DNA of 64,000 nucleotides from Balneola sp. EhC07 (GTDB lineage: Bacteria; Bacteroidota; Rhodothermia; Balneolales; Balneolaceae), in contig NZ_LXYG01000004.1 in the NCBI RefSeq assembly GCF_001650905.1, forward strand, positions 1-64,000. Direction: 5' to 3'. The notes beneath the pieces are model-generated. The model did not search any database. It had not been told where the DNA came from and was given only the letters and a program-made list of their open reading frames with translations. Shown piece after piece: positions 32,827 to 51,401 of the stretch; the stretch's first letter is position 1; each line of letters starts with the position of its first letter. The position numbers were made by a program, and so were the translations under genes.

Positions 32827-33548
32827 TGTCATTAGCTAAGAAATCTTTCTTTTTTTTATTTCTGCTGTCACTTTATGGCTCGCAAACTACTTTAGGTTTT
32901 CAGATTTCTGCAGATACTTCTTCGGTAGTTGAGGTCAGAGTTCCTGGCGAAGACTCGATTGAAGCTTACCAAAATGATGAGGATTTCAATTATGAAGTCG
33001 ATCCTGAGGAGTCTCAATCCTGGATGTTGCTTTTTCTGGTTTGGATACTTGATCTCTTTGGAAAGGTATTTGGCAATACATACGGCGATATCTCATTAAA
33101 ATTTATTCTCATTCTCTTTTTCGTGATTGCATTGGCACTACTGATCAATGCTCTGTTTAAAGGAAATATGGGAAGTGCATTTACCGGACAATCAGCCTCC
33201 AAGAAACTTAAAGTTGATCTTCATAATGAGCATATCGACTCTGTTGATCTGGACGCTTTGATGAAAGATGCGATCCAAAACAAAGATTTCAGACTAGCTG
33301 CCCGCTACCTTTATTTGAAGGCTCTTCAGAATTTAAATGAAGCTAACCTGATCGTTTGGGCGGTAGATAAAACTAACTCCGAGTATCTGAACGAAATACA
33401 AAACCATCCCGGTAGAGAAGCTTTCAGCAAACTTACGTTAATTCATGATTATACCGAATATGGAGATTTTGAGATAGATGATTCCGGATTCAGTAACATG
33501 AAAAGACATTATGAAAATTTGTTAGCAAAACTTGGAAGTCGCTCATGA
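32826..33548 (+). CDS. DUF4129-domain membrane protein
   Basis: 240 residues. A signal sequence (about 1-25, ending TTLGFQ), a short acidic periplasmic region, then a hydrophobic stretch (about 66-78) and a strong helix near 88-110. The C-terminal cytoplasmic domain (about 140-235) matches DUF4129: LAARYLYLKALQNLNEANLIVWAVDKTNSEYL and FSKLTLIHDYTEYGDFEID. The start codon overlaps the previous stop by one base. Part of the MoxR-associated cluster; molecular role unknown. Confidence 0.8.
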   Translation: MSLAKKSFFFLFLLSLYGSQTTLGFQISADTSSVVEVRVPGEDSIEAYQNDEDFNYEVDPEESQSWMLLFLVWILDLFGKVFGNTYGDISLKFILILFFVIALALLINALFKGNMGSAFTGQSASKKLKVDLHNEHIDSVDLDALMKDAIQNKDFRLAARYLYLKALQNLNEANLIVWAVDKTNSEYLNEIQNHPGREAFSKLTLIHDYTEYGDFEIDDSGFSNMKRHYENLLAKLGSRS

Positions 33549-34768
33549 ATAGAAAAGAGATTATATATCTTTCTGTTATGGGAGTGGCAATTGTGCTCTA
33601 TTTGGGATTACAAATATTCGGCCCAAAGCCAATTGATTGGTCAGAAAGTTATTCTTCCTTAGATAAGATCCCTTATGGCGGATATATATTAAAACAGGAA
33701 CTACCTGTTCTATCCCCTTCGGATCAGGTTGAGATCAACCATAAACCTCTTTTCCAATCTTTGAATGATGAATTCAGCGGTTTAGAAGCTGAGCTGAATT
33801 GGATCTTTATAAATTCCCGGATCGGCTTTGACCCTTTTGAAACTGATCTGCTTTTACAAAGAGTGAATGAAGGAGATCAGGTTTTTATAGCAGCTTCAGA
33901 ATTTTCTTCAAAGTTCGCGGACACTCTGAATCTGGAAACAGATTATGAATATTCTCCCTGGGATTCGAGCATTACTAATTTTAATGTACAATCACCGGAA
34001 GATTTTTCCCTTAGCTTTTCAAATCCCGCATTGGATTCTACCAAAAAATGGACATACCCTAAGCTATTAAGAAGGTATTTCAGTTCTTTCGATTCTACAT
34101 CCACAACTATACTCGGAACAGATAATGCCTCTGCCGTTAACTTTATTAAAGTCAGCTTTGGTGATGGAGCCTTTTTTCTGCATTCGAACCCTGCCGTATT
34201 CACTAATTACTTTCTGAGGGATGTGGAATACGCCGACTATGCTTTTAAGGCTTTGTCGTACCTGCCACCTGAAAACCGAATTGTTTGGGATGAGCACTAC
34301 AAGGTTGGAAGAAGATATGAGACTTCACCGATCAAATATGTGCTGGCAAATGCCGATCTTAAAATGGGATGGTATCTTGCAATCGTGGGAATTATACTAT
34401 TTATGATCTTCCGCGGAAAAAGAAAACAAAGGATCATTCCAATTATAAAACCTCCGGTTAATTCCAGTATTGAATTCGCAAAAACTATCGGAGATCTGTA
34501 TTTAGAAAAAGGAAATCACCATACAATTGCCATAAAAAGAATAGATTTTTTCCTGGAGTATATTCGGTCAAACCTAGGACTGGAAACCTATAAAGTTGAC
34601 GATCAATTTATTTCGGATGTTTCTCGGCGATCAGGAATTAAAGAGTCAGAAATAGATAAACTCTTTTCGTTAATTGCTGATATTCGACAAAATGACAAAA
34701 TAGACACGTCCAGCCTAAAACTTTTAACAAACAGAATCGACTGGTTCTATAATCAAAGTAAAAGATGA
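33545..34768 (+). CDS. DUF4350-domain membrane protein
   Basis: 407 residues. One N-terminal helix (about 7-24), a periplasmic domain (about 25-270) holding the DUF4350 region (SSLDKIPYGGYILKQELPVL ... NRIVWDEHYK), a second helix near 280-296 and a basic cytoplasmic tail of 110 residues. Joined to both neighbours by ATGA overlaps (33545-33548 and 34765-34768). Such proteins accompany MoxR and DUF58 genes across Bacteroidota; the function is not known. Confidence 0.82.
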   Translation: MNRKEIIYLSVMGVAIVLYLGLQIFGPKPIDWSESYSSLDKIPYGGYILKQELPVLSPSDQVEINHKPLFQSLNDEFSGLEAELNWIFINSRIGFDPFETDLLLQRVNEGDQVFIAASEFSSKFADTLNLETDYEYSPWDSSITNFNVQSPEDFSLSFSNPALDSTKKWTYPKLLRRYFSSFDSTSTTILGTDNASAVNFIKVSFGDGAFFLHSNPAVFTNYFLRDVEYADYAFKALSYLPPENRIVWDEHYKVGRRYETSPIKYVLANADLKMGWYLAIVGIILFMIFRGKRKQRIIPIIKPPVNSSIEFAKTIGDLYLEKGNHHTIAIKRIDFFLEYIRSNLGLETYKVDDQFISDVSRRSGIKESEIDKLFSLIADIRQNDKIDTSSLKLLTNRIDWFYNQSKR

Positions 34769-35799
34769 GTTCACAAGATAACACACAAGATCAAAACCCT
34801 ACTGATGCTAACAATGAAGATCAAAAGATTCCGGAATTTACTTCCAGAATAGATCTTTCGGGAGTAAAAAAATTAGCTGATTCTATTCGTAAAGAGATCG
34901 GCAAAGTGATCATTGGACAGCATGAAATGATCGATCAGCTCATCACAGCATTACTAGCTGATGGACATGTATTGATCGAGGGTGTGCCCGGAGTTGCCAA
35001 AACGTTGACTACCAAATTGCTTGCACGAACCATCCATTCTGATTTTTCAAGAATTCAGTTTACCCCGGATCTTATGCCCGCTGATGTTATCGGAACCTCC
35101 ATCTTTAATACAAAAGTAAGTGACTTCGAATTTAAAAAAGGTCCTGTTTTCTCAAACATTGTTTTAATTGATGAGATCAACCGTTCCCCGGCTAAAACGC
35201 AGGCTGCTTTATTTGAAGTAATGGAAGAGCGACAAATAACCGTAGATGGAAAAACCTATCTTATGGATAAACCATTTATGGTAATTGCTACACAAAACCC
35301 TATCGAGCATGAAGGAACATACAGATTACCAGAAGCTCAGCTGGATCGATTCATCTTTAAAATTGAAGTTCCATATCCAAGTCTTGAAGAAGAAATAAGT
35401 ATTCTAAATGGTAGTTTTGATCGAGGAAATGTGTTGGACATTTCAACCCTCGAGCAAGTAGTTTCAGCGGAGGACATTGCAAAACAAAGAGCTGTGATCA
35501 ATAAAGTTCATGTTGAGCCTGAATTGATGAAATATATTGCTCAGATCATTCAGAATACGAGAAACAGCAGTTCCATTTCTATCGGGGCTTCTCCAAGAGC
35601 AGCTGTTTTCGTAATGAGAGCTTCACAAGCTTCTGCTGCAATGAAAGGAAGAGATTTTATAACTCCGGAAGACGTAAAAACCGTTATCAAGCCAATTCTA
35701 AGACATAGGATCACTCTAACTCCTGAAAAAGAGATGGAAGGAATAAATCCGGATCAAGTGATAACTATGCTGTTGGAAAAAGTAGAGGTGCCACGATAG
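34765..35799 (+). CDS. MoxR-family AAA+ ATPase
   Basis: 344 residues. Walker A GVPGVAKT (73-80), Walker B VLIDEINR, MoxR signature RSPAKTQAALFEVMEERQ, sensor motif ATQNPIEHEGTYRLPEAQLDRF and the C-terminal lid SIGASPRAAVFVMRASQASA. The first 30 residues are a polar linker. MoxR ATPases act as chaperones that help assemble or activate partner complexes, usually with the vWA-like DUF58 protein encoded next door. Overlaps the DUF4350 gene by 4 bp. Confidence 0.93.
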   Translation: MSSQDNTQDQNPTDANNEDQKIPEFTSRIDLSGVKKLADSIRKEIGKVIIGQHEMIDQLITALLADGHVLIEGVPGVAKTLTTKLLARTIHSDFSRIQFTPDLMPADVIGTSIFNTKVSDFEFKKGPVFSNIVLIDEINRSPAKTQAALFEVMEERQITVDGKTYLMDKPFMVIATQNPIEHEGTYRLPEAQLDRFIFKIEVPYPSLEEEISILNGSFDRGNVLDISTLEQVVSAEDIAKQRAVINKVHVEPELMKYIAQIIQNTRNSSSISIGASPRAAVFVMRASQASAAMKGRDFITPEDVKTVIKPILRHRITLTPEKEMEGINPDQVITMLLEKVEVPR

Positions 35800-35804
35800 T
35801 ACGT

Positions 35805-37130
35805 TTGTTCAAATCATTGCATTTAAGCACCCGTTTCTTTCAGGTGCTTTTTTCAGTTGCGATCTTATTCGTAATAGGATTTTTAGTGCCTGTTATCTCC
35901 GCTTTAGCTCAGATAGCGTTGGCGGCTTTTGTAGCGCTTACTATTTTCGAGTTTATAATGCTGTTTCGAATTCGGGATGGAATTACCGTTGACCGTTTGG
36001 TCCCGAACAGGCTTTCGAATGGTGATGAAAATGTAATTACTCTTTCCATCTTTAATAACTACGCATTCAACTGCAGGCTGGAGATCATAGATGAGTTACC
36101 TCCTCAATTTCAGATCCGCGATTTTAGCATTCGGCTTGGAATCGTCTCCGGGAAAGCCATAAAAAAGAATTATACACTCCGACCTACTGAGCGGGGCGTG
36201 TACAATTTCGGATTCACCATCTGCTATGCATCAACAACAATTGGCTTAGTATTAAAAAAGTATGAGCTGAATGAAGAAACTGAAGTCAAAGTGTATCCTT
36301 CTTTTATTCAGATGAGAAAATTTGAGCTGTATGCGATTTCAAACCGTCTTACTGATATTGGTATCAAAAAGATCAGAAGGATCGGACATACCATGGAGTT
36401 CGATCAGATCCGGGATTATGTTCGGGGTGATGATGTTCGCTCTATTAATTGGAAAGCCACTGCCCGTGCTAACTCACTGATGATCAATCAGTATCAGGAC
36501 GAAAAATCTCAACAAGTCGTGAATGTCATCGATATGGGTCGGGTCATGAAAATGCCTTTTGATGGTTTACACTTGCTGGACTATGCTATCAATACCAGTC
36601 TGGTCATTTCAAATATCGCTCTTCTAAAGGAAGACAAAGCCGGATTAGTTACTTTTTCTAATAATAAATCAGTAGTCGTTAAACCGGAGAAGAAGAGAAC
36701 TCACATTCAGCGAATCCAGGAAACATTGTATAATCTTGAAACAGATTTTCTGGAGTCGGATTATGAAAAACTGCTGATCTCACTCAGAGCTCATGTCAGA
36801 CAAAGAAGCTTGGTTTTGTTATACACCAATTTCGAGAACTACTCGTCTATGGAAAGGCAACTTCCTTTTTTACAACGTATCGCAAAAGACCATCTCTTGG
36901 TAACCGTATTTTTTGAGAATACAGAGTTGAGCACTTTACTGGAAATGTCGCCTTCCAAAGTTGGAGATATATATACCAAAACTATTGCTGAACAATTCAA
37001 CTATGAAAAAAAGCAGATCGTAAAAGCTCTCAATCAAAGAGGCATTCATACTATCCTCACTCCTCCCAAGGAGTTATCCGTGAACGCGATCAATAAGTAC
37101 TTAGAGTTGAAAGCCAGAGGCTTGATTTAG
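35805..37130 (+). CDS. DUF58-domain protein, MoxR partner
   Basis: 441 residues. Two membrane helices at the N-terminus (about 12-50), a beta-rich middle, and the DUF58 signature TMEFDQIRDYVRGDDVRSINWKAT near 195-218 followed by a von Willebrand A-like fold (VNVIDMGRVMKMPF). The likely start is TTG at 35805, 5 bp after the ATPase stop; no ATG is available near the expected N-terminus. Expected to work with the MoxR ATPase at the membrane. Confidence 0.87.
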   Translation: MFKSLHLSTRFFQVLFSVAILFVIGFLVPVISALAQIALAAFVALTIFEFIMLFRIRDGITVDRLVPNRLSNGDENVITLSIFNNYAFNCRLEIIDELPPQFQIRDFSIRLGIVSGKAIKKNYTLRPTERGVYNFGFTICYASTTIGLVLKKYELNEETEVKVYPSFIQMRKFELYAISNRLTDIGIKKIRRIGHTMEFDQIRDYVRGDDVRSINWKATARANSLMINQYQDEKSQQVVNVIDMGRVMKMPFDGLHLLDYAINTSLVISNIALLKEDKAGLVTFSNNKSVVVKPEKKRTHIQRIQETLYNLETDFLESDYEKLLISLRAHVRQRSLVLLYTNFENYSSMERQLPFLQRIAKDHLLVTVFFENTELSTLLEMSPSKVGDIYTKTIAEQFNYEKKQIVKALNQRGIHTILTPPKELSVNAINKYLELKARGLI

Positions 37131-37167: not shown

Positions 37168-38136
37168 ATGATACGACTACTTTTACCTGTTTTATTTTTA
37201 TTGATATCCGCCACAACCCTGATTGCGCAGTCCGACTCTGCCTTTGTGAAGATTGAACTGCAAGGTGAGGACAATTTTTTAGTTATCAATAACGACTTTA
37301 ATAATTGCATCCCGTTTAACAGCTCAGATTCAATAGCAGTTAGTAAGGGAATTCATTCATTGAAAATTATTTCCAAATTTTATCAGGATATAAATACCAG
37401 TGTTCAGATCGAAGAAAATGAGACCAAAGAACTCAAACTGTACCCCATCTTTCTAGAAACGGATTCTGAACGGGAAACAAGGAGTTCTTATGCTCGGTGT
37501 TTTTGGGGTTCTAATGTTTTTATCATCTCGGATCATGATTCCGATCTATACTTTCAAGATCAAAAAATTGGTATCGAGAACAGCAGACTTATGCTTCCTG
37601 ATGGTTCATATAAGATGACTGCTGCTTTAGGGGATATATCTTCGTCAAAAAAAATTACAGTCTCTGATAATTTTCAAGTAGTTGAAAATTATATCCGACC
37701 TAAAAAATCTACTATCTACCTTCGCAGTTTGCTTCCCGGTTATGCCCAATTTTCTAAAAGAGAACAATTAAAAGGCGGCTTGTTTGCTACCTTAAGTTCC
37801 GGTCTGGTTTTCAGTGCTATATTTAATGAGCATAGAGTAAAGCAGAAAAGTTCTGACTATGAGCAACTCAGACTTCAATATATTACAACACATGACCCTG
37901 ACAGAATTCTGGAGATCATTGAAGAATCTGAGCAAACCCTGGATGACATTGACCGGTATAAAAAAATTAGAAACTATTCTATAATTGGGCTGGGAGTTAC
38001 CTACGTATTAAATTTGATTGATGGAACAAGAGCTCCCGAATTCGGTTTCCGGCCAAATACCAGAATAAAAATAAATCCCTATATAGATTTTGATAAAACC
38101 CTGTTACCGAACGCAAATGTGAAAATTGACTTTTAA
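37168..38136 (+). CDS. Exported envelope protein with PEGA-like and DUF5683-like regions
   Basis: 322 residues. Signal peptide about 1-20 (ATTLIAQ). Residues 25-185 are beta-rich with two PEGA-like stretches (GIHSLKIISKFYQDI and LPDGSYKMTAALGDI). From 185 on, IYLRSLLPGYAQFSKREQLKGG and a hydrophobic segment are reminiscent of DUF5683 proteins, followed by a charged helix and a C-terminal strand region ending NANVKIDF. Assignment to DUF5683 is tentative. It follows the DUF58 gene by 37 bp and precedes two lipoproteins by 2 bp. Confidence 0.6.
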   Translation: MIRLLLPVLFLLISATTLIAQSDSAFVKIELQGEDNFLVINNDFNNCIPFNSSDSIAVSKGIHSLKIISKFYQDINTSVQIEENETKELKLYPIFLETDSERETRSSYARCFWGSNVFIISDHDSDLYFQDQKIGIENSRLMLPDGSYKMTAALGDISSSKKITVSDNFQVVENYIRPKKSTIYLRSLLPGYAQFSKREQLKGGLFATLSSGLVFSAIFNEHRVKQKSSDYEQLRLQYITTHDPDRILEIIEESEQTLDDIDRYKKIRNYSIIGLGVTYVLNLIDGTRAPEFGFRPNTRIKINPYIDFDKTLLPNANVKIDF

Positions 38137-38138
38137 AG

Positions 38139-40310
38139 ATGCAAAGATCACTTCTTTATATTTTTTGCGGATTGTTAATGATCCCGGCTTGTTCAGATGC
38201 TCCAACTAAAATTGAAAGAGATAATCCGGGTGATCCTGAGGTATTTGGTTTTGTATTGAATCCCGTTCAAGATATTTCCACGAGTATCTTAGAGGATAAA
38301 GTGATCGAAGTAGAATGGACAGATTCCTCACTAGTTCCAACTAGCTATGTTTTAAAGAAAAAAATTCGTGCTTCTGATAATTACATAGCTCTAGATACTT
38401 TAGATAAAGATACCAGAGAATTTATTGATGAGAGCGGTGAAATCACTAAAGACACCAAGTATGAAATTATTAGTCTCCGAAAACAACAAAGTGGTGAAGA
38501 AGTATTTTCAGAAGGAATTAATTCCGGAATAGACTTTGGCGATTTAATCTCTTCATCTCACACCTACAATGCTGATACAACAGCTATTCAGATTAACTGG
38601 GAACTTGAAACTAAGTGGTCTTTTATTGCCGTCTTAAGCACAATCGATGTCGATGTTAGAGAAGATATTGATACAGTTATTAATTCAAATACTATTACTA
38701 CTCCTGCTTTTGAAAAAGATTTTTCTGAACGTATATATCAAGTTAGACTTTTTATTTCTGAAGTAGACTTAGAAAACAACAATACTTTTAAAATCGTTGA
38801 CGGCGGTTATTACCTAGGAATGAAATTCGCACCTGAAATAACAAATGTTGAGGTTATTAACGAAGGTAAAGTAATAATAAATTGGGAAGACAACTCAAGC
38901 TTTGAGGATGGGTTTAGAGTTCTCCGAAGCAAAGGGTTTAACAGAAATAGTGCAAGCGAAAGTGAAGTGATTGCTGAATTGGGTCCAAATGTTACTTCTT
39001 ATACGGATACACTGAATCCTATAACTGGGTATACGAGAAATGAATTTGGTGGTGAGACCAACATCAAAACGTACTATGGAATACTAGCTTATAAAAACGA
39101 TACACAAACAGGTACATTTGGAGCAGAAGTACAATTCACTCCACCGGAGGTTTCTTTTGAAATCGAAAGTCTTTCGGAAAATTCTTTATCTCTTTCTTGG
39201 TCTACTTCAAATAGAGATAAAACCGACACATTCATACTTCAGAAAAGTACCAATGGTACAACTTTCAGTGATTATAAATACTTTCCAAAAAATTCTACGG
39301 GGTATGTCGAGAATGATCTTGATAAATCATTGACTCATTACTTCAGAATCAAGACTCACACTTCTAAAGTTTCAAGCGAAAAAATTGTAAAACATTCAAA
39401 TTATTTGATTGAAAAACATCGATTTGATTTTTTGGATGGCCGGAATTTAAGATTTAGTGATTCAGGTGATTTAATAATTACTTCGAAAGGTTTTTTCGGT
39501 AATGATACTAACGCAGAAGAAATAGGAATTTTTAACCTCAGAACAAATAATACAATATATAACAAAGCGCCAACCGGAAATGCTATTGTTGGAATAGATA
39601 TAGACGAGCAAAACAATTTAATGGTACTCGCATCTCATGCAAATCAATCATTTACCCTATACGATTATAATGCCGATACTGTAGTTTATCAAAAAAATTC
39701 TGTAAATGTATTTGATGTTGAGTTCGGGTCAGAAAACAAATTTGCTTATACAAATTCTTCACGAGATGAGCTCTATAAATTTGATCTTGTAAATGAATCA
39801 ATACTGTTTAACAAATCACCGTTTAGTGTTACAAGTACTCTTAGAAGTATCTCAATTAGCCCAACCGGTGATTCAATTGCTTATAATACCGACGGTTTAT
39901 TTGAGCTTTATTCTTCGTCCGGAAACCAAATCAATTTTTCACATGTACTAGACTACGGAAGTACTGCTCAAAAAGTAGATTTCTCAAAAAGTGGCAAATA
40001 CATCTCAAATATAAGTGATTTTAATAAAGCAGAAATTCACTTTACGAATCCTGCGAGTAGACATCTTCTTACAGGCGCAGAACATATTTCCATTAGTTTT
40101 GACGATAAACTCTATATGACAGCTAAAGGTTCACTATTAAGGTTATTTGAACTAAGTTCAAAAAAACAATTATTGAGCCACTCTTTTTCGGGTAAAATTT
40201 TTGATCTAAGATTTTCACCATCAGAAGAATTAGTTGCTATTGGATCTGCAAATGGAATATTTTTGTATAGTATTTCGGAAGACAAAAAATGGAGTTTATT
40301 TGAAAACTAG
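38139..40310 (+). CDS. Lipoprotein with FN3 domains and beta-propeller, copy 1
   Basis: 723 residues. Lipobox MIPAC (Cys18), then the motif SDAPTKIERDNPGDPE. Fibronectin type III-like domains fill about 40-420 (for example VIINWEDNSSFEDGFRVLRSKG and LSLSWSTSNRDKTDTFILQKS). From about 425 a WD40-like propeller follows, with blades such as AIVGIDIDEQNNLMVLASHANQSFTLYD and DLRFSPSEELVAIGSANGIFLYS. Likely surface or periplasmic, role unknown. It starts 2 bp after the previous gene. Its N-terminal 33 codons are almost the same as in the following gene, whereas the rest has diverged strongly. Confidence 0.8.
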   Translation: MQRSLLYIFCGLLMIPACSDAPTKIERDNPGDPEVFGFVLNPVQDISTSILEDKVIEVEWTDSSLVPTSYVLKKKIRASDNYIALDTLDKDTREFIDESGEITKDTKYEIISLRKQQSGEEVFSEGINSGIDFGDLISSSHTYNADTTAIQINWELETKWSFIAVLSTIDVDVREDIDTVINSNTITTPAFEKDFSERIYQVRLFISEVDLENNNTFKIVDGGYYLGMKFAPEITNVEVINEGKVIINWEDNSSFEDGFRVLRSKGFNRNSASESEVIAELGPNVTSYTDTLNPITGYTRNEFGGETNIKTYYGILAYKNDTQTGTFGAEVQFTPPEVSFEIESLSENSLSLSWSTSNRDKTDTFILQKSTNGTTFSDYKYFPKNSTGYVENDLDKSLTHYFRIKTHTSKVSSEKIVKHSNYLIEKHRFDFLDGRNLRFSDSGDLIITSKGFFGNDTNAEEIGIFNLRTNNTIYNKAPTGNAIVGIDIDEQNNLMVLASHANQSFTLYDYNADTVVYQKNSVNVFDVEFGSENKFAYTNSSRDELYKFDLVNESILFNKSPFSVTSTLRSISISPTGDSIAYNTDGLFELYSSSGNQINFSHVLDYGSTAQKVDFSKSGKYISNISDFNKAEIHFTNPASRHLLTGAEHISISFDDKLYMTAKGSLLRLFELSSKKQLLSHSFSGKIFDLRFSPSEELVAIGSANGIFLYSISEDKKWSLFEN

Positions 40311-40350
40311 TACAGTATTTTCTTCAGATAAAATTGTTTTCTTTGACTTT

Positions 40351-40371
40351 GAAAATTGACTTTTAACGATG
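40351..40371 (+). repeat. Duplicated junction before the second lipoprotein gene
   Basis: GAAAATTGACTTTTAA at 40351-40366 followed by GATGC repeats the segment at 38121-38136, which codes for the last residues and stop of the 322-residue protein. Here it lies in non-coding space after the first lipoprotein stop (40310). It marks one edge of the tandem duplication. Confidence 0.85.
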
Positions 40372-42624
40372 CTTAGACCTCTTCTTTATATTTTTTGTGG
40401 ATTGTTAATGATCCCGGCTTGTTCAGATGCTCCAACTAAAATTGAGAGAGATAATCCGGATGATCCTGAAGCACCCACTTTTTCTTTAGAATCTTCTGAT
40501 AATATTTCTACTGAAATCCTTGATAATAAAGTCATCAGAATTAGCTGGGAAGATTCTGTTAAATTTGCTGACTATTATATCCTGAGCAAATCCCTTAATA
40601 ATTCTGGAAATTATACAATATTAGATACTATTGATATTCAGACAAAAGAGTATGAAGATGCGAGCGGTGAAATAAATCTACGAACACAGTATTTAGTTTA
40701 TAATGAACGTGTTCAGGAAAACGGAGCAATAATTTCATCCGATAGTATATATACTGGAATAAATTTTGGTAACATTTCTTACCCGGATACATCTTCCTAT
40801 TCATCGCTAAATTCAGATACAACTGCTATAAATTTCACTTGGGATTTCGAAACGAATTGGCCTTTTATTTCACTCGTATATTATTCGGATTTGATAAATA
40901 ATGAACCCATCATAATTGATACTCTTTATAATGGTACTACTAGTTATCTCACACCGTTATTTGAAAAAGACTTCAATGACAGAAACTACTTCATACGTAC
41001 ATATGTTAGTGAAAATGATATTTCTAATGACATCTTCATTGATGAAATGGCAGCTGGTTACTTTCCATCACAGTTATATAATATTTCTGTAGACCCGATT
41101 GAAACCATTAATGAAAATAAAACTATTATTCGCTGGAATGATAATATAGATATTGAAACAGGGTTTGAAATCTATAGAAGTTATAATAGTGCGAATAATA
41201 TGACTCTCATTGCAACACTAGATTCAAACTCTAAAAACTATACAGATACTAATACACCTTACCAACCTGAGTCTAACTCTTATACTGCAAGTAATGTCAA
41301 TTATGAATCTTACTACTTAGTTAAAGCAATAAAAAGAGAAACCTCATTAAGTTCTGAATATAAAAAATCACAAGTTACGATATCAGCGCCTACTCTAAAC
41401 TATTCTAGTTCGAATGAAACTGAAATTCAACTTTCTTGGGAGCACCCAAAACCCTATACAGTTTCTAGTTTCATTCTTCAAAGGAGCATAAATAATGACG
41501 AGTCGTTTGAAGATTATAAAACATTCCCAAATACTATTTTTGAGTTTACTGATGATAGTTTAAATGTTAATGAAAACTATTATTACAAATTAAGAACCCT
41601 GGTTAAAAAACCAGTCCAATCTCCGCTATTTTTTTCTTATGGATTTGACTCAAATGTTATTGACTCTTTTAGTTATCAAAATGCTACTTCACTAGCTGTT
41701 AGTAAAAATGACAAGTATTTAGTTGCTGCTTCTGGAAAAAATAGCCCCCTTTCGTCAAATAGAAATGAAGTAGTTATTTATGATCTGGATTCAAGAACTG
41801 AGCTATATAGGAAAAATATATTCAATACACCGATAGATGGAATTGATATCAATGAGGATAACAATCTGCTAGCCGTAGCTTCTGCCTCTTCAAAATCAAT
41901 TCGAATCATAGACTTTCTTTCCGATACGTTAGTATTTGAAATGAACAACCTAGAAGTTCACGATATAAAGATGAGCCCAGATCTATCTTTTTTATATTCA
42001 GTTGATGAAAAAAGTAATTTGAGCAAATTCGATATAAATAGTAATGAAATCTTGTTTTCTAAAGAAAGCACCGGTGCATTTACAAATTTTACTGCTCCAA
42101 GAAGAATTAGTATAAGTCCATCTGGTGACTCTGTTGCTATAAATTATAATAACACTATTCGTTTATTTGATAGTTCTGGCAATGTTATTCCATTCGATTA
42201 TAAAACAGTAGGTGGAAATACATCTGAGTGGGTTAAAATCTCAAATAATGGAAAATATATATCCTCAACTATTGATTACGCAAATATTACTAGAACTTAT
42301 GTTCAAAGTTTATCAGATGGGGATGTTAAATTTTATGTCCAAGGTAACGAGTCTTCAGTCGACTTTGATAGCAGAAATCAATATGCAATTATCATAAGTA
42401 GAGACTCTTATTATCTAATTGATATCGAAAATAGCATTACAAGAACAAGCGGACTAATTTCCGAAGCTTCAGACATGGATAAATGGTTGCTCTCAGCTGC
42501 GTCTTCAAATATTGGCCAAACATTTTTTGTATCTAACTCGGAATTTATAAAAATGATTGAATTTCTAGATAACAAAAAATGGGTCAAATCGCCTCGTCAA
42601 TTTACATTAAATCCCCGTTTTTGA
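40369..42624 (+). CDS. Lipoprotein with FN3 domains and beta-propeller, copy 2
   Basis: 751 residues, paralogue of the preceding gene. The same lipobox MIPAC and SDAPTKIERDNP motif are followed by DDPEAP, then FN3-like domains (about 40-410; TIIRWNDNIDIETGFEIYRSYN, IQLSWEHPKPYTVSSFILQRS) and a propeller (about 420-740; VAASGKNSPLSSNRNEVVIYDLD, GIDINEDNNLLAVASASSKSIRIID). It is slightly longer and richer in Asn and Ile. Function unknown. The 260-bp gap after it carries only a promoter candidate for the respiratory operon. Confidence 0.8.
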   Translation: MLRPLLYIFCGLLMIPACSDAPTKIERDNPDDPEAPTFSLESSDNISTEILDNKVIRISWEDSVKFADYYILSKSLNNSGNYTILDTIDIQTKEYEDASGEINLRTQYLVYNERVQENGAIISSDSIYTGINFGNISYPDTSSYSSLNSDTTAINFTWDFETNWPFISLVYYSDLINNEPIIIDTLYNGTTSYLTPLFEKDFNDRNYFIRTYVSENDISNDIFIDEMAAGYFPSQLYNISVDPIETINENKTIIRWNDNIDIETGFEIYRSYNSANNMTLIATLDSNSKNYTDTNTPYQPESNSYTASNVNYESYYLVKAIKRETSLSSEYKKSQVTISAPTLNYSSSNETEIQLSWEHPKPYTVSSFILQRSINNDESFEDYKTFPNTIFEFTDDSLNVNENYYYKLRTLVKKPVQSPLFFSYGFDSNVIDSFSYQNATSLAVSKNDKYLVAASGKNSPLSSNRNEVVIYDLDSRTELYRKNIFNTPIDGIDINEDNNLLAVASASSKSIRIIDFLSDTLVFEMNNLEVHDIKMSPDLSFLYSVDEKSNLSKFDINSNEILFSKESTGAFTNFTAPRRISISPSGDSVAINYNNTIRLFDSSGNVIPFDYKTVGGNTSEWVKISNNGKYISSTIDYANITRTYVQSLSDGDVKFYVQGNESSVDFDSRNQYAIIISRDSYYLIDIENSITRTSGLISEASDMDKWLLSAASSNIGQTFFVSNSEFIKMIEFLDNKKWVKSPRQFTLNPRF

Positions 42625-42818
42625 TTTTTTATCAATAAGTGTTTCTCATATTTCAGTAATCTAAATTTTTCCATTTTCTTCAGGAAACTTTACCAAATGT
42701 ATAGTATCTTTTGATGCTTTGATAAAGCTACGGTTTGAATCGGCGCTCTTTTTATTTAGAACAGTTTTAAATAGAAGGTTCTATCCATTCCTGACTTCAT
42801 ATAGATGGAAAATATCGG

Positions 42819-42826
42819 TAGATTTG
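42819..42826 (+). promoter_or_regulatory. Candidate -7 box of the respiratory operon
   Basis: TAGATTTG matches TAnnTTTG and lies 58 bp before the actA start. A matching -33 element is not clear. It is the only such match on this strand that I found in the 260-bp gap before a 13-kb operon. Confidence 0.5.
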
Positions 42827-42884
42827 CGGCGCTTCAATTAAAGGTAATTAAGCAATGTTCCGCTAACTAAATTAAGCAATCTTT

Positions 42885-43529
42885 ATGGCGCAGATTTTCC
42901 CCAAGTGGACAAATCAAGTTCCTCGAAAAATTTTGATCGGTCTTATCGTTGTTGCAAACGCTCTGATCTTTTCAGTATGGTACTTTTTCTCTCCAAGCTA
43001 CACCGATGTAGGATACGCTCCTGAACAGCCGGTTCCTTATAGTCACAAATTACACGTTGATAAACTCGGCCTGGATTGCCAATACTGCCACACCAATGTG
43101 TTTGACTCTAAGCAGGCAAATATTCCCGCAACTCAAACTTGTATGAATTGCCACAATCAGGTTAAAACCGACAGCGAAAAACTCGCTCCCATCAGAGAAA
43201 GCTGGGAAAGCGGACAACCTGTTGAATGGGTTCGTGTTCATAACTTAGCGGATTACGCGTATTTCAATCACGCCGCACACGTAAACGTTGGCGTTGGCTG
43301 TGAAAGTTGCCACGGACGAGTTGATAAAATGGAAGTTGTATATCAGGCAGAGCCTTTAAGTATGGGATGGTGTTTAGATTGCCACCGTGAACCTGAAAAA
43401 GTATTAAGACCTGTAGAAGAAGTTACGACTATGGGATACAAAGCTGAGAACCAAGCTGAACTAGGCGCAGAGTTGGTGAAGAAAAATAACGTAAGTCCTC
43501 CTCAATATTGTCAGGGCTGCCACTACTAA
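42885..43529 (+). CDS. actA: Alternative complex III subunit A, pentaheme cytochrome c
   Basis: 214 residues. One N-terminal membrane helix (about 15-36), then five CxxCH heme sites at 65-69, 86-90, 139-143, 163-167 and 209-213, the count expected for ActA. Conserved histidines between them (SHKLH, FNHAAH) can serve as distal ligands. In alternative complex III this periplasmic subunit passes electrons from menaquinol oxidation towards ActE. First gene of the operon, 31 bp before actB. Confidence 0.95.
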   Translation: MAQIFPKWTNQVPRKILIGLIVVANALIFSVWYFFSPSYTDVGYAPEQPVPYSHKLHVDKLGLDCQYCHTNVFDSKQANIPATQTCMNCHNQVKTDSEKLAPIRESWESGQPVEWVRVHNLADYAYFNHAAHVNVGVGCESCHGRVDKMEVVYQAEPLSMGWCLDCHREPEKVLRPVEEVTTMGYKAENQAELGAELVKKNNVSPPQYCQGCHY

Positions 43530-43560
43530 TTACGGATTTTAGAACTTTATACATCATCTA

Positions 43561-46500
43561 ATGAGCGAAGTTAAACAAAACACTTACTGGAAAAGCTTAA
43601 ACGAACTAGCTAAGAACCAGGAATATCAAAAATTTGTTGAACGTGAGTTCCCTGAAAATGCTTCAGAGTTGTCAGATGGATTTTCACGTCGTGGATTTCT
43701 TGCAATTATGGGTTCTGCTGTATTACTGGCAAGCTGTGATTTTGCTCGCCGTCCTGTTCAAAAAATATTACCGTATTCTAAACAACCGGAAGACATCGTA
43801 CCCGGCGTACCATTGTTTTATGCTTCCGCAATGCCGTTTCAGGGAAGTTTAACCGGACTTGTAGTTGAGAACCATGAAGGTCGCCCTACAAAAGTTGAAG
43901 GAAATGACATGCATCCCGGTAGCCACGGAGGAACAAGTATCTTCCATCAGGCTTCTGTTTTAGGAATGTATGATCCGGACAGATCAAAGAAAGTTTTAAG
44001 AAAAGGCACTGATTCTACTGTAAACGATTTTGTTGATTTTGCTAAGAAGCATTTCGCTGATACAAGTAAGAATATCGCCTTTATTTCAGAAGCCAGCTCC
44101 TCTCCTACTTTATCAGGACTAAAAGCTCAGGCTTTAAATAAATTCAGTAATGCTGATTGGGTCACTTATGAACCATTCGGCGAATCAAATGCTCTGGAAG
44201 GAACTCAAAAGGCATTTGGCAGAAGACTTCGTGCTCATTTCGATTTCTCTAAAGCAAACGTTTTTGTTTCTCTTGATGATGATGTACTAAATGGTACACA
44301 TCCAAACAGTGTGGAATACGGAAAGCAGATCAGTGCTGCTCGTAAAGTTACCAGCACTAATGATTCCATGAGTAGAATCTACGCTGTTGAGAACGGATAT
44401 TCTTTAACCGGTTCTTATGCAGATCACCGCCTGAGATTAAAAGCCAGTGAAATTGATGCTTTTGCTCATGCACTTGCAGCAGCGCTTTCAGGCAGAGTAT
44501 CAGGATTGAATGCTTTTAGTGGTTATTCGAATCAATTCAGCGATCATGAGTGGATCTCTGCTCTTGCTGATGAATTGATTGCTAACCGTGGCGAATCTGT
44601 TGTTTCTGTTGGAAACAATCACTCTGCTAACGCACACGCTGTTGTAGCAGCGATCAATAAAGCATTAGGTAACGACGGAAATACTGTAAACTACCTTGAA
44701 GTTCCTCATCTGGATGAAGAGTCCACTTCAGCTTTCAACGCTACTGTTGAAAAAATGAAAAATGGTGGTTACGATACGGTAGTAATGCTAGGAACGAATC
44801 CGGTATTCTCTGCGCAAAACAAAGATTTTGAAAATGCACTAAGCAACGTTGAGGAAGTGATTCATCTTTCTGATTATGTAGATGAAACTTCGAAAAAGGC
44901 TTCATGGCATATTAATAAGGCTTTTTATCTGGAATCATGGAGCGACGGTCATTCTTATGGTGGTGTTCGCTCAGTAATTCAGCCTCAGATCCAGCCTTTA
45001 TATAACGGTCTTAGTGACATCGAGACTTTGAACATTATTGTGAACGGAGAAATGACATCCGGATACGATCTTGTTCAAAATACTTGGAAAAATATTTACA
45101 GCTCAGGTTTTAAATCTAAGTGGGCTCAACTCCTGCATGATGGCGTTGACACTAATTCAGGATTTAACAAAGCTAACGTTCGCATTTCAAACAGTTTCAG
45201 ACCTGATACAGGCAAAGACAATGCGATCTCAGGAATTGAAATTACAGTAAGAGCTGATTCTACTTTATATGATGGTCGTTTTGCAAACATCGCATGGTTG
45301 CAGGAACTTCCTGACCCAATGACTAAGATCACTTGGGATAACGTAGCGGCGATGAGTCCTGCTACAGCTAAGCAATTAGATGTGGAAAATGAAGATGTGG
45401 TAGAGATCACATCAAACGGACAGACTATTAAGATCGCAGCCTGGATCCAACCCGGTCATGCTGATAACAGTATTTCACTAACCGTTGGTTATGGACGTGA
45501 CGGAATTGGACGTGTTGCCAATCGTTACATCGACTACACAACCGGTGGAGTTGATACTTATCCTTTAATTGGAAATCATTTTGTATCTGAAGGTTCTGTT
45601 AGTAAAACAAGCGACACTTATGAAATCGCTTGTGTTCAGGATCACCACAGCCTTGAAGGTCGTGATCTTTACAGAATGGCTACTTTAGAAGAATATAAAT
45701 CGAACCCAGACTACGCTTCTTTCAAAAGCTACCATACTTATGAAGTACCTGGTATGAAAGAAGCTGCTGAAAAAGGCGAAGATGTGCCGATTTCACTGTT
45801 TGATGAGCAAACATATCCGGATTCTGAACCACAATGGGGAATGGCTATTGACCTTAACTCCTGTTTTGGTTGTGGTGTTTGTGTGATTGCTTGCCAATCC
45901 GAAAACAATATCCCGGTAATCGGGAAAAAAGAAGTGAATCGCGGTCGCGAGATGCACTGGATTCGTACCGACAGATATTATGTAGGCGAAGATGCTGATG
46001 CTCCAATGACAGCTCATCAGCCTGTTCCGTGTATGCATTGCGAAATGGCTCCTTGTGAGCAAGTTTGTCCTGTTGCGGCAACTACGCACAGTGAAGACGG
46101 AATGAACCAGATGACCTACAACCGTTGTATTGGTACTCGTTATTGTGCAAATAACTGTCCTTACAAAGTTCGTAGATTCAACTTCTTCAACTTCCCTAAA
46201 GAGTTTTTAACAACCGGAGCAGAACCAGATATTATCCAAATGGCGATGAATCCGGAAGTAACTGTACGTTTCCGTGGAGTTATGGAGAAATGTACATACT
46301 GTGTTCAAAGAGTTAACAGAGCTAAAATAGACGCTAAGATCGAAACAGGTTCTCCAAAACCTGCTGAAGGTGCTGTTAAAACGGCTTGTCAGCAAGCTTG
46401 TCCTGCAGATGCGATCTACTTTGGTGATTTGACCAACGAAAATAGTGAAGTCGCTAAAATGAAGAGAAATGAGCGTAATTATCAGATGCTTGAAGAACTG

Positions 46501-46563
46501 AATACACGCCCAAGAACTTCATATATAGCTAAATTAAGAAACCCAAACCCAGTTTTGGCATAA
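43561..46563 (+). CDS. actB: Alternative complex III subunit B, molybdopterin-like/iron-sulfur fusion
   Basis: 1000 residues. A twin-arginine signal (FSRRGFLAIMGSA, about 40-55) is followed by a lipobox-like LLASC. Residues about 80-700 resemble a molybdopterin oxidoreductase scaffold, which in ActB carries no cofactor. The C-terminal part is a four-cluster ferredoxin domain: CFGCGVCVIACQ from Cys768, CMHCEMAPCEQVCP, CIGTRYCANNCP and CTYCVQRV with CQQACP. ActB is the large periplasmic Fe-S subunit, fused here as in other Bacteroidota. Confidence 0.95.
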   Translation: MSEVKQNTYWKSLNELAKNQEYQKFVEREFPENASELSDGFSRRGFLAIMGSAVLLASCDFARRPVQKILPYSKQPEDIVPGVPLFYASAMPFQGSLTGLVVENHEGRPTKVEGNDMHPGSHGGTSIFHQASVLGMYDPDRSKKVLRKGTDSTVNDFVDFAKKHFADTSKNIAFISEASSSPTLSGLKAQALNKFSNADWVTYEPFGESNALEGTQKAFGRRLRAHFDFSKANVFVSLDDDVLNGTHPNSVEYGKQISAARKVTSTNDSMSRIYAVENGYSLTGSYADHRLRLKASEIDAFAHALAAALSGRVSGLNAFSGYSNQFSDHEWISALADELIANRGESVVSVGNNHSANAHAVVAAINKALGNDGNTVNYLEVPHLDEESTSAFNATVEKMKNGGYDTVVMLGTNPVFSAQNKDFENALSNVEEVIHLSDYVDETSKKASWHINKAFYLESWSDGHSYGGVRSVIQPQIQPLYNGLSDIETLNIIVNGEMTSGYDLVQNTWKNIYSSGFKSKWAQLLHDGVDTNSGFNKANVRISNSFRPDTGKDNAISGIEITVRADSTLYDGRFANIAWLQELPDPMTKITWDNVAAMSPATAKQLDVENEDVVEITSNGQTIKIAAWIQPGHADNSISLTVGYGRDGIGRVANRYIDYTTGGVDTYPLIGNHFVSEGSVSKTSDTYEIACVQDHHSLEGRDLYRMATLEEYKSNPDYASFKSYHTYEVPGMKEAAEKGEDVPISLFDEQTYPDSEPQWGMAIDLNSCFGCGVCVIACQSENNIPVIGKKEVNRGREMHWIRTDRYYVGEDADAPMTAHQPVPCMHCEMAPCEQVCPVAATTHSEDGMNQMTYNRCIGTRYCANNCPYKVRRFNFFNFPKEFLTTGAEPDIIQMAMNPEVTVRFRGVMEKCTYCVQRVNRAKIDAKIETGSPKPAEGAVKTACQQACPADAIYFGDLTNENSEVAKMKRNERNYQMLEELNTRPRTSYIAKLRNPNPVLA

Positions 46564-46589
46564 GAATTTAATCAGGAATAATTCCAAAC

Positions 46590-48014
46590 ATGAGTAAATA
46601 CGATTACGTACCGGAACCCGCTCTTGTGAAAGGCGATCATGATTTTGCCAGCCTCACACGATTGGTTACTGATATAAACTTAAGACCAACTCCAAAAGGT
46701 TGGTATCTGGCAATGATTGGAGCAAATGCTTTGCTCGCCGTACTTGGAATTGCAGTAGGATACCTAATCTGGGAAGGAACCGGAGTCTGGGGACTAAACA
46801 ATCCTGTAGGTTGGGGTTGGGCAATCATCAACTTTGTTTGGTGGGTTGGTATCGGTCACGCAGGAACCTTGATTTCTGCTGTATTATTCCTTTTCAGACA
46901 GGATTGGCGTACTGCCATTAACCGTTTCTCTGAAGCAATGACTATTTTCGCCGTAATGTGTGCCGGGGTTTTTCCTGCCATTCACGTTGGGCGTATTTGG
47001 GTTATTTACTGGGTATTCCCGGTTCCTAACCAAATGGCAATGTGGCCAAACTTTAACTCTCCCCTTCTTTGGGATGTGTTTGCTGTTTCTACCTACTTCA
47101 CAGTTTCCTTCTTATTCTGGTATGTTGGTTTAGTACCTGATCTGGCTACGATCAGAGATAGAGCTACTGATAAAATCAGAAAATACGCTTACGGAATCTT
47201 TTCTTTAGGCTGGACAGGAAGTAACCGTCACTGGTGGAATTATGAAAAAGCGTATATGATCCTGGCCGGATTAGCAACGCCTCTTGTACTTTCTGTACAC
47301 ACAATTGTATCCTTTGACTTCGCCGTTTCACTTATTCCGGGATGGCACACCACTATTTTCCCTCCTTACTTCGTTGCCGGTGCAATTTTCTCCGGTTTCG
47401 CAATGGTATTAACCCTGATGATCGTTGCCAGAAAGATCTACGGCATGAAAGACATCATGACAGACGACCACATGGAGAAAATGAACATTGTAATTATGGT
47501 TACGGGTTCAATGGTTGGTTTTGCATACATGATGGAGTTCTTTATTGCATGGTATAGTGGCGTTGAGTACGAAAAAGCAATTTTCTTATTGAGAGCAACC
47601 GGACCTTATGCATGGGCATACTGGGCAATGATGACTTGTAACGTGTTATCTCCTCAATTCTTCTGGTTCAAGAAGCTAAGAAGAAGCGTTGGGTTTACTT
47701 TCTTCATCTCGATTGTAGTAAACATCGGTATGTGGTTCGAGCGATTTGTAATTACGGTTACTTCACTCGCAAATGATTATCTACCTTCTTCTTGGGATTA
47801 TTACTCCCCGACAATTTGGGATATTCTCACTTATGTAGGAACCTTTGGATTATTCTTTACGATGTTCCTGTTATTCTTAAGATTTTTACCGATGATCGCT
47901 CTTGCAGAAGTTAAGATGGTAATTCCGCAGGCCGATCCGCACAATTATGATGAGAATCATGACTATCAAGCTCCTAAAGTTGAAATTCCAACTCCTAAAG
48001 CTGTGGAGGCATAA
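46590..48014 (+). CDS. actC: Alternative complex III subunit C, NrfD/PsrC-like membrane protein
   Basis: 474 residues, about ten membrane helices in the NrfD fold. Typical segments are [43 protein letters not shown] and [30 protein letters not shown]. It holds the menaquinol site facing the periplasmic Fe-S subunit. 26 bp after actB and 3 bp before actD. Confidence 0.95.
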
Positions 48015-48017
48015 ATA

Positions 48018-48581
48018 ATGAGTGCACCAGCTAAAAAGAAAATCGAAGAGCAACCAAAGTTGCATGGCATTCTGGGCGAGTTCCGGAATCCGAAAGCTCT
48101 ATATGATGTAGCTGCTTTAACAGTGAAATCAGGTTACAATAAATTTGATACTTACAGCCCTTTTCCTATTCACGGAATTGATAAGGCAATGAACCTGAAG
48201 AAATCTAAACTGGGCTGGATCGTAATTGGTCATGGTCTTGTAGGATTTTGTGGAGCGCTGACCATGATGTATTTCATGGCTGTAATGGATTATCCGATGA
48301 ATATCAGTGGTAAACCTTTTTTCAATGCGCCTGCATGGGTTCCGATCACGTTCGAATTAACAGTATTACTTTCAGCATTTGGTGCTGTATTTGGAATGTT
48401 CTTCCTAAATGGACTTCCGAAATTGAATAACCCTCTTTTTAACGTTGACCGATTTAAAAAAGCTACTGACGACGGCTTCTTCATTTGTATTGAAGCTGAA
48501 GACTCTCTTTTCGAAACAGAAAAAGTGAAAGAATTGCTTAAAGAAGCCGGAGCAACACATATAGAGGAAGTATATGACTAA
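48018..48581 (+). CDS. actD: Alternative complex III subunit D (DUF3341)
   Basis: 187 residues. Two membrane helices (about 70-95 and 113-135) between a short N-terminal region with GILGEFRNPKALYDVAA and a cytoplasmic C-terminal domain ending EAGATHIEEVYD. The core KYSPFPIHG-like YSPFPIHGIDKAM is the DUF3341 mark. It is a structural subunit on the cytoplasmic side. Its end overlaps actE by 8 bp. Confidence 0.93.
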   Translation: MSAPAKKKIEEQPKLHGILGEFRNPKALYDVAALTVKSGYNKFDTYSPFPIHGIDKAMNLKKSKLGWIVIGHGLVGFCGALTMMYFMAVMDYPMNISGKPFFNAPAWVPITFELTVLLSAFGAVFGMFFLNGLPKLNNPLFNVDRFKKATDDGFFICIEAEDSLFETEKVKELLKEAGATHIEEVYD

Positions 48582-49608
48582 CAAGAATGAAATAACTTCT
48601 TTAATGACCGCTAAGAATATCCTTAAAATGGCTTGTTTAAGTGGAGCTGCTTTGGTTTTCGCTTCATGCCGTGGGCAGATTTCTGAAAAACCTCCTGTTC
48701 ATCCTAACATGAACATGGATCAGCAACCCAGAATGGAAGCTCAGGAAGTAAACAAGTTTTTTGAAGACAAGCGCTCTATGCGTCAACCTGTGGAAGGAAC
48801 CATAGCTCGGGGATTATTGAAATCTGATGTTGCTTACTACGAAGGTACTGACGCAAACGGAGAATGGATCGCCGACATCCCTGTAGAAGTTACTAAAGAA
48901 TTGCTTTACAGAGGACAAGAGCGTTACGATGTATATTGTTCAGTATGTCACGGCGGAACCGGTGCAGGTGATGGAATTATCATGACCGGAAATTACGGTT
49001 ATGTTCCGGCTCCTACTTACCATCAGGACCGTTTAAGAGAAGCTCCGGATGGAGAAATTTATTCTGCTATCTATAATGGTGTTAGAACGATGCCTTCTTA
49101 CGCAACTCAAATTAAAGTTGAAGATCGATGGGCAATTGTAGCCTACATCAGAGCGCTTCAGGCTAGTCAAAATGTTAGTGAAGATGAGATCAACGACTAT
49201 GATGTTGATGTAAATGAGCTACAAAATGAATATAAAGCTGAACAAGAGCGTTTAGCAGCTCTTGCTGAAGCTCGCAAACCTGAAAAGGAAACTGAAGCTT
49301 CTGTACAAATGGGTGAACAATTGGTTGGACAGTATGCATGTGGAACTTGCCACAATGAAGATGGTGCTGAAGGCGGAATTGGACCAACTTGGAAAGGATT
49401 ATTTGGAAGTACAGCTCAGGGTATTGATGCAGAAGGAAATACGATCTCTATCACAAAAGATGAGACATACATTCGTGAATCCATTGTAGCTCCCGGAGCA
49501 AAAAAGACACAAGGTTATGAACAAGGAGTTATGGCCCCTTACGATTACTTGTCTGACACAGAAATTGAATCACTAGTTCTATACATAAAATCACTGAGTG
49601 ATAACTAA
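48574..49608 (+). CDS. actE: Alternative complex III subunit E, diheme cytochrome c lipoprotein
   Basis: 344 residues; the ATG at 48574 or 48604 may be used. Lipobox VFASC (Cys32). A first cytochrome c domain has YCSVCHGGTG (Cys122-His126), as in usual ActE. After a charged helical linker (about 200-240) a second cytochrome c domain has YACGTCHNEDG (Cys256-His260). This second domain is a close relative of the cytochrome domain at the end of CoxB in the same operon. Together they could hand electrons from alternative complex III to the oxidase. Confidence 0.93.
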   Translation: MTNKNEITSLMTAKNILKMACLSGAALVFASCRGQISEKPPVHPNMNMDQQPRMEAQEVNKFFEDKRSMRQPVEGTIARGLLKSDVAYYEGTDANGEWIADIPVEVTKELLYRGQERYDVYCSVCHGGTGAGDGIIMTGNYGYVPAPTYHQDRLREAPDGEIYSAIYNGVRTMPSYATQIKVEDRWAIVAYIRALQASQNVSEDEINDYDVDVNELQNEYKAEQERLAALAEARKPEKETEASVQMGEQLVGQYACGTCHNEDGAEGGIGPTWKGLFGSTAQGIDAEGNTISITKDETYIRESIVAPGAKKTQGYEQGVMAPYDYLSDTEIESLVLYIKSLSDN

Positions 49609-49630
49609 GAAAATAGCTTAATACATTACA

Positions 49631-50851: not shown

Positions 50852-50861
50852 TTGTTGATCT

Positions 50862-51401
50862 ATGTCGACTAAGCACAACGCAAAATTTAAAGCACAAGTA
50901 GCTATTGAAGCCTTAAATCTCTCTGCAGGGGATCTTGAAGAATTTGCTAAAGTAAAAGGGGTATCAACAGACCAAGTTTTAGATTGGGTATCTCAGCTAA
51001 AAGAAAATTCAGCAACAATTTTTGAAGAAGGTCAAGACGCTCATAGTGGTCACCATCACGCATCCGGAGAAAATGTAAATCTTGAAACAGAAGATGAGCT
51101 CCTTATAGCTGCGGTTTCTCACGGAGTTAACGATGATAACCTGAATTATAATAAGCTTTTCTTCTGGACCACTTTTGGAACAGGTCTGGTAGTTGTAATT
51201 ATTTATGGATTGATACAGTTTGCTCAGGCCAGCTGGTTTGATGCACAAAACGAAGCTGCTGTAAATAGTCAGTTTTCCGAAATAAAAGAATTGAAAGCTA
51301 AGGATGCGGAAACGCTGAATAGCTATGGTGTTGTTGATCTGGAAAACGGAACATACAGAATACCAATTGATCAGGCTATTAATAAGATAGCTGAAAATTA
51401 A
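50862..51401 (+). CDS. Respiratory-operon membrane protein with IS3 OrfA-like helix-turn-helix
   Basis: 179 residues. The N-terminus (about 7-58: AKFKAQVAIEAL, then VSTDQVLDWVSQLKENSATIF) closely follows the IS3-type OrfA/HTH_Tnp_1 pattern (FKAKVALEAL ... GVHPNQISKWKKQLLENA). A His-rich stretch (SGHHHAS) follows, then one membrane helix (about 99-122). The short periplasmic tail contains LNSYGVVDLENGTYRIPIDQAI, a pattern I associate with small proteins beside SCO and caa3 genes. No transposase catalytic domain, no terminal repeats. It sits 10 bp after actF and 4 bp before SCO, so it is a stable operon member. Function unknown; an oxidase assembly or bridging subunit is a possibility. Confidence 0.7.
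   Translation: MSTKHNAKFKAQVAIEALNLSAGDLEEFAKVKGVSTDQVLDWVSQLKENSATIFEEGQDAHSGHHHASGENVNLETEDELLIAAVSHGVNDDNLNYNKLFFWTTFGTGLVVVIIYGLIQFAQASWFDAQNEAAVNSQFSEIKELKAKDAETLNSYGVVDLENGTYRIPIDQAINKIAEN

Follow-up and report, generated by a model that had tools for sequence, protein, structure and literature searches.

Known systems and the Balneola locus

The examples of leader-sharing and mosaic surface genes that we have met come from host-associated pathogens. In Borrelia, the OspEF-like leader peptide (Elp) lipoproteins carry similar leaders on completely unrelated mature parts (PMC12018966). In the vmp genes of relapsing-fever Borrelia and in Anaplasma, gene conversion is anchored, with a 5' homology or invariant region serving as the conversion start site (PMC4534519). 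Finally, surface-protein variants of Porphyromonas gingivalis are described as a mosaic unrelated to strain phylogeny and produced by allelic exchange (PMC5266723).

We focus here on a tandem pair of genes for predicted lipoproteins in a window of 64,000 nucleotides, the whole stretch of DNA that was analysed, from a Balneola-group genome (G000; its relatives are G001 to G007, and c1 and c2 denote copy 1 and copy 2). Like the Elp family, the Balneola genes combine a common leader with a differing mature part. Elp proteins, on the other hand, are encoded on cp32 prophage plasmids, whereas the Balneola genes lie in tandem on a contig with respiratory genes and their bodies are still homologous. 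The vmp and Anaplasma systems use donor or silent copies together with an expression site; no copies of this kind were found in the Balneola case, where both genes are open. A DNA search of G000 for an archive of silent copies gave the two copies only, in a 20-contig assembly whose gaps could hold further ones, and a more distant open paralogue lies on contig C14, broken by the contig end. Since silent cassettes were not found in G000, we do not class the locus as an antigenic-switching system. With P. gingivalis it shares a mosaic of variants, there of surface proteins, that arise by exchange; the protein families, on the other hand, are different ones, and in Balneola the patching is internal to a single gene, with a leader tract common to a tandem pair. 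The Balneola locus belongs with the already known mosaic surface-type genes, the surface exposure of its products being putative.

We consider it very probable that this is a hyper-recombining lipoprotein locus, patchworked between tandem copies and diverged Balneola alleles. The pattern stands here beside a conserved respiratory operon and would indicate another pressure than in the pathogens, possibly phage, grazers or partner cells, at a locus compact enough for testing. A 5' end can be almost unchanged for reasons other than constraint; here, the relatives reveal a transferred patch. Judged by title and the start of the abstract, the literature on Balneola lipoproteins (subscription journals being mostly outside it) holds no report of this locus, and the papers listed on Balneolaeota recombination hold nothing on it. 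The literature found on DUF5683 consisted of nematode work only, and no paper was found that combines mosaic surface lipoproteins, gene conversion and leader peptides.

The tandem pair and its shared start

In the window, a DUF5683 gene is followed by copy 1, copy 2 and then genes labelled ActA to ActF, which we take to be alternative complex III (Table 1). The partnership with DUF5683 recurs: the ORFs upstream of lipoprotein genes match PF18935 at E<=0.01 in 10 of 10 cases, 9 of them above the cutoff, the ten being a hand-picked subset of the available loci. At L013, by contrast, the upstream ORF looks unlike a DUF5683 gene.

Table 1. Features of the lipoprotein locus in window coordinates
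Feature	Position	Strand	Remarks
DUF5683-family partner gene	37168..38136	+	PF18935, 33.1 bits vs cutoff 26.7; last 17 nt = left end of shared tract
Shared start tract, copy 1	38120..38240	+	DUF5683 gene end, start of translation, Cys18-bearing hydrophobic leader and the motif CSDAPTKIERDNPxDPE
Lipoprotein copy 1, predicted	38139..40310	+	723 aa; mosaic; weak fn3 and propeller matches
Copy 1 segment nearest to the G007 single gene	approx. 38151..38530	+	codons 5-135; score 149.9, null maximum 26
Stretch aligning to G004	39388..41181	+	3' half of copy 1, intergenic region, first 813 nt of copy 2; 84% over 1798 columns
Intergenic region	40311..40368	.	final 19 nt = repeat of DUF5683 gene end (alignment)
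Shared start tract, copy 2	40350..40470	+	differs from the start of the G007 gene at 1 of 121 nt
Lipoprotein copy 2, predicted	40369..42624	+	751 aa
Sharp right edge of variable region	42675..42884	.	96-97% homology with G004, G007, G002 starts at 42675

An earlier note on this DNA had described a near-identical first 100 bases or so with about eight differences, and a 17-nt junction copied from the end of the preceding gene. Both descriptions proved accurate: the copies differ at 8 of the first 102 coding nucleotides and at 1 of the 19 nucleotides before the ATG, and the junction TGAAAATTGACTTTTAA, which ends the preceding gene at 38120-38136, has an exact second occurrence at 40350-40366. 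Of the eight coding differences, Q2L and S4P account for 2 nt each and G31D for 1 nt; the others are silent and lie in codons 10, 26 and 34. In the flanks of the tract, 29 of 41 nucleotides differ upstream and 36 of 78 downstream.

Divergence along the two genes is as uneven as the note had proposed. Among identical residues, four-fold sites differ in 0 of 10 cases within the first 32 codons, as against 40 of 64 beyond, and the codons themselves are identical at 27 of 29 such residues versus 114 of 225 in the remainder. The note's claim that only the domain plan remains past the start needs correcting, since 225 of 679 aligned residues after codon 32 are still identical (33%; 14% to 51% per 35-codon block). 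Apart from the tract, no long near-identical stretch remains between the two copies. The binomial chance of at least 93 identities in 101 at 50% is ~1e-19, and a permutation test places the patch of this pair at alignment codons 3-38, with a score of 47.5, where the null reached at most 15.5 (2000 permutations). Further cassettes with the same start, which the note had suggested looking for, are absent from the rest of G000 at comparable strength: a genome search with the tract gave two strong matches, and the 29 others listed are short, with E of 0.2 or more. Among 92 family genomes, tract matches at E<=0.001 occur only in G000, G007 and G004, with one each in G004 and G007.

Relatives of the module and mosaic structure

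Of the 8 genomes of the genus, 4 carry the DUF5683-lipoprotein module next to the Bat-type cluster, with a tandem pair in G000 and G004 and a single gene in G007 and G001; in G003, G005 and G006 no such lipoprotein gene lies beside DUF58. G002 keeps a deletion relic, in which ~146 nt of a DUF5683 start and ~20 nt more are followed by ~205 nt of a copy-2-type end. The relic is located at about 7228-7960 of L056. All six lipoprotein genes have open reading frames. In G004, a metagenome-assembled genome (MAG) of ~6x coverage, copy 2 has the shared start, while the start of copy 1 differs and follows a different DUF5683 allele; the starts of this copy and of the G001 gene are just 43-60% identical to those of the others. 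The single gene of G007 is copy-1-like past the start. Between G000 and G007, the left-flank genes are ~97% and the DUF5683 genes 92.6% identical in nucleotides, and the lipoproteins only 49% in protein. A scan of genome contigs, covering close relatives only, gave 1 locus, in G004, and 0 of 32 pattern matches in viral contigs were relatives. Past about codon 271, none of the 8 genus genomes has a close DNA relative of copy 2, and a near-identical donor was found neither for the middle of copy 1 nor for the last two thirds of copy 2.

Mosaicism was assessed with a GENECONV-like permutation test (2000 permutations) on a codon alignment of six genes with 698 ungapped codons, and the case rests on the four Balneola genomes with an intact module at this locus. 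Significant patches of raised identity, above the 99% permutation level, are present in 11 of the 15 pairs of genes and at differing places, and pairwise nucleotide identity swings between ~50% and 81-98% in 30-codon windows of the six-gene alignment. Positions are given for seven pairs, and four further pairs also show patches. Apart from the two pairs described above and in Table 1, the positions are codons 3-39 for G000c2/G007 (60 of 60 polymorphic sites identical), 131-269 for G004c1/G007, 447-670 for G004c1/G001, 628-766 for G000c1/G004c1, at the end of copy 1, and 5-276 for G000c2/G004c2. Within the stretch that aligns to G004, the patches stand out most at the end of copy 1 and over the initial 813 nt of copy 2 (94% to G004). 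Some patches are weak, for example that of G007/G001, at 24.0 versus a null 99% level of 14.0, and by the same test a patch is absent in 4 of the 15 pairs (G000c2/G004c1, G000c2/G001, G004c1/G004c2 and G004c2/G001).

Trees of separate segments regroup the genes: G007 joins G004c1 in codons 151-270 (support 95), G001 joins G004c1 in 451-660 (99), and G000c1 joins G004c1 in 661-779 (85). Support is weak for the tree of the short start segment (31-70) and for the grouping of G000c1 with G007 in codons 37-150 (50). Four neighbouring genes served as controls in the same test with 1000 permutations; 5 of their 32 pairs exceeded the 99% level, reaching at most 2.7 times that value (BatA 2/10, ActB 3/10, MoxR 0/6, DUF5683 0/6; the G007 MoxR gene was left out for the Ns at its start). 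The strongest control, ActB of G007/G002, scored 71 against 26.6, and the strongest lipoprotein patch 398.8 against 22.4; relative to the 99% level, the latter reaches 17.8 times and the start patch 4 times, while the weakest lipoprotein patches fall within the control range. The BatA and ActB signals indicate that recombination is not confined to the lipoprotein locus, though it is far more visible there.

The lipoprotein genes are thus a mosaic, segmentally recombining family, with a signal well above that of the neighbouring genes. Their bodies carry stretches 81-98% identical to different relatives, and so have changed by segment replacement and not solely by fast point change. The shared start is one patch among several and not a specially conserved signal.

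Transfer of the start tract and competing explanations

Since G000 and G007 are closely related, the G007 start would be expected nearest to copy 1, its positional counterpart. Over the 121-nt tract, however, it has 1 difference to copy 2 and 10 to copy 1, whereas its flanks are of the copy 1 type, with 3 versus 28 differences in the upstream 41 nt and 10 versus 30 in the downstream 78 nt (copy 1 versus copy 2). A start of copy 2 type within flanks of copy 1 type implies that a tract of ~121 nt has moved between the two types of gene; the transfer could have gone either way. Gene conversion of the start, one of the two readings that the earlier note had offered, is supported by this copy-1-type gene with its copy-2-like tract. 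The other, an export cassette kept while the sensing part changes fast, finds no support as stated, given the dissimilar starts of G004c1 and G001, and fast point change of the body alone does not fit the permutation-tested stretches shared with different relatives.

We propose that a two-gene module, consisting of a DUF5683 protein and a predicted propeller lipoprotein, is being patched by homologous recombination among tandem copies and related Balneola alleles. The tract would first have become common to both copies when copy 2 landed behind a duplicated DUF5683 gene end of the G000/G007 type. A short, gene-conversion-like event would later have passed it once more between genes of the copy 1 and copy 2 types, which we propose because the tract is the sole long near-identical stretch left between the copies; this short start would be the stretch in which tandem copies can still convert each other. 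The exchanges may depend on RecA-type recombination after DNA uptake. The lipoproteins are probably exposed on the surface, and the varied body alleles may result from diversifying selection, with phage or grazers as possible agents.

The alternative that survives best, and which we regard as a serious though tentative possibility, is that copy 2 is the allele of another strain, which an unequal crossover within the final 17-19 nt of a DUF5683 gene placed behind copy 1, with no conversion required for the origin of the shared start. Both copies would then carry the start of one lineage in front of bodies that were already different alleles, and later exchanges are compatible with this. The 19 nt before copy 2 are indeed the DUF5683 end of G007, unlike that of G004, and divergence runs about evenly from tract into flanks both for G000c1/G007 (10/121 in the tract, 3/41 and 10/78 in the flanks) and for G000c2/G004c2 (7/121, with 4/41 and 4/78). 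The G007 start, on the other hand, at 1/121 from copy 2 versus 10/121 from copy 1, demands one later short exchange. The older sharing of the start, seen also in G004 copy 2, may date to the birth of the tandem.

Patchwork recombination might also have a more regular form, which we think rather doubtful, in which the start tract acts as a recombination anchor, from the stop codon of the partner gene to the ERDNxxDP motif, with new bodies swapped in at more than one locus. If this were true, a free-living bacterium would possess an anchored system for swapping bodies, comparable to those with which pathogens switch antigens; furthermore, the 121-nt direct repeat would allow copy 1 to be deleted, with copy 2 taking over the DUF5683-coupled position.

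It is very improbable, in our judgement, that purifying selection keeps the start (signal peptide, lipobox and translation start) while the remainder evolves fast after an ordinary tandem duplication. The export signal does fall within the tract, and the family shows, at the protein level, repeated occurrences of the motif C..xPTxIERxNxxDP or of a looser version. However, silent sites are identical too (0/10 four-fold differences), the tract extends to nucleotides before the ATG, and the starts of G004c1 and G001 are unrelated; constraint on the export signal was rejected on these grounds. Moreover, start identity has a median of 0.67 over the 300 pairs in a survey of 25 motif-bearing ORFs, which retains at least one false motif match (the cytochrome-like L060) and in which gap-tolerant alignment makes body identities run high. 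Only 7 of the 300 pairs reach at least 0.88, all of them from two Balneola loci: six are the pairings of the four genes at locus 1 that have the shared start, and the remaining one is the locus-2 pair. The bodies, with their stretches 81-98% identical to other relatives, also speak against this explanation. That assembly chimaerism of mixed strains produced the mosaic is scarcely credible. Coverage of the G004 MAG is low, and in the G007 contig the nearby MoxR gene begins with Ns, but the tandem and its junction are found in two assemblies (G000 and G004), the c1/c2 tract of G000 lies within a single contig, the right edge at 42675 is repeated in G004, G007 and G002, and the reading frame is open in all six genes.

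A second locus

A second DUF5683-lipoprotein module is present on G000:C14 and G004:C11, syntenic on the comparable side, the other side ending at the G000 contig end. The flank of this locus is 85.7% identical in nucleotides between G000 and G004 over 10.3 kb, and one neighbour, presumably leucyl-tRNA-synthetase-like, is 96.9% identical in protein. The lipoprotein genes are 90% identical over the first 105 nt, with identity stopping near the ERDNxNDP motif; their bodies are ~50% identical in nucleotides, and the partner genes 49% in protein. This suggests that the start pattern of the first locus recurs. With a flank at 85.7%, however, the 90% start is little above background, and conversion there is unproven; plain inheritance of the start between two fast-changing stretches could account for it.

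The G000 member on C14 (L091, 1-1682) is a third family lipoprotein in that genome, broken within its body by the contig end. On G000:C3 (L093, 8066-9499), near a contig end and behind a 1384-aa protein, a 477-aa protein has a similar lipoprotein start, CSEGPTFERNNSNDP.

Predicted protein features

Copies 1 and 2 are predicted to be lipoproteins with a WD40-type propeller, encoded behind a DUF5683 partner. In both, Cys18 follows a hydrophobic start, in the context IPAC in the two window copies and IQGC in G004c2, as read by eye; by the lipobox rule, it is the putative lipobox cysteine. Both copies have propeller-type Pfam matches below the Pfam cutoffs, with a weak fn3 match in copy 1, and an NCBIfam search gave no match above cutoff. 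An AF2 model of copy 2, built from four sequences and of modest confidence, has a mean pLDDT of 61.8 and is best at residues ~471-560. Read from the strands of this modest model, copy 2 may consist of four Ig-like domains and a C-terminal propeller. Patch edges near codons 38 and 131-135 coincide with linkers of the model, whereas the third domain and the propeller have other edges in their interior.

A PDB sequence match to a WD40 propeller has E=0.00055. In a fold search of the PDB, 1922 matches had E<=10; the best 50 of these are mostly WD40 propeller proteins and large complexes, with no functional lead among them. The C-terminal propeller resembles in fold prokaryotic WD40 propellers such as 5yzv (Thermomonospora), at a target TM-score of 0.76-0.77; in Balneola, on the other hand, the propeller forms the end of a predicted lipoprotein.

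Flanking regions

Homology with the G001 Act region begins at 42663, slightly before the edge found with the other relatives; as with these, it runs into ActA. The Act region itself (window 42675-50978) is 96-97% identical in nucleotides to those of G004, G007, G002 and G001, and the other compared stretches match G000 at ~86% (G004, locus 2), 87% (G001) and 92% (G002, 1 kb). The Act region may have spread recently between Balneola species, or may be strongly conserved.

The MoxR/Bat-type cluster (window 33545-37130) exists in two deep versions, that of G000 and G007 and that of G001, G002 and G004. Between them, MoxR is ~66-69% identical in nucleotides, despite the near-identical Act region in those genomes. 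In G004 (L053, 4025-6137), an intact DUF58 gene is separated by two minus-strand genes from a second relic of the DUF58 end; the arrangement looks like insertion, as a unit, of the block from the DUF58 end to Act.
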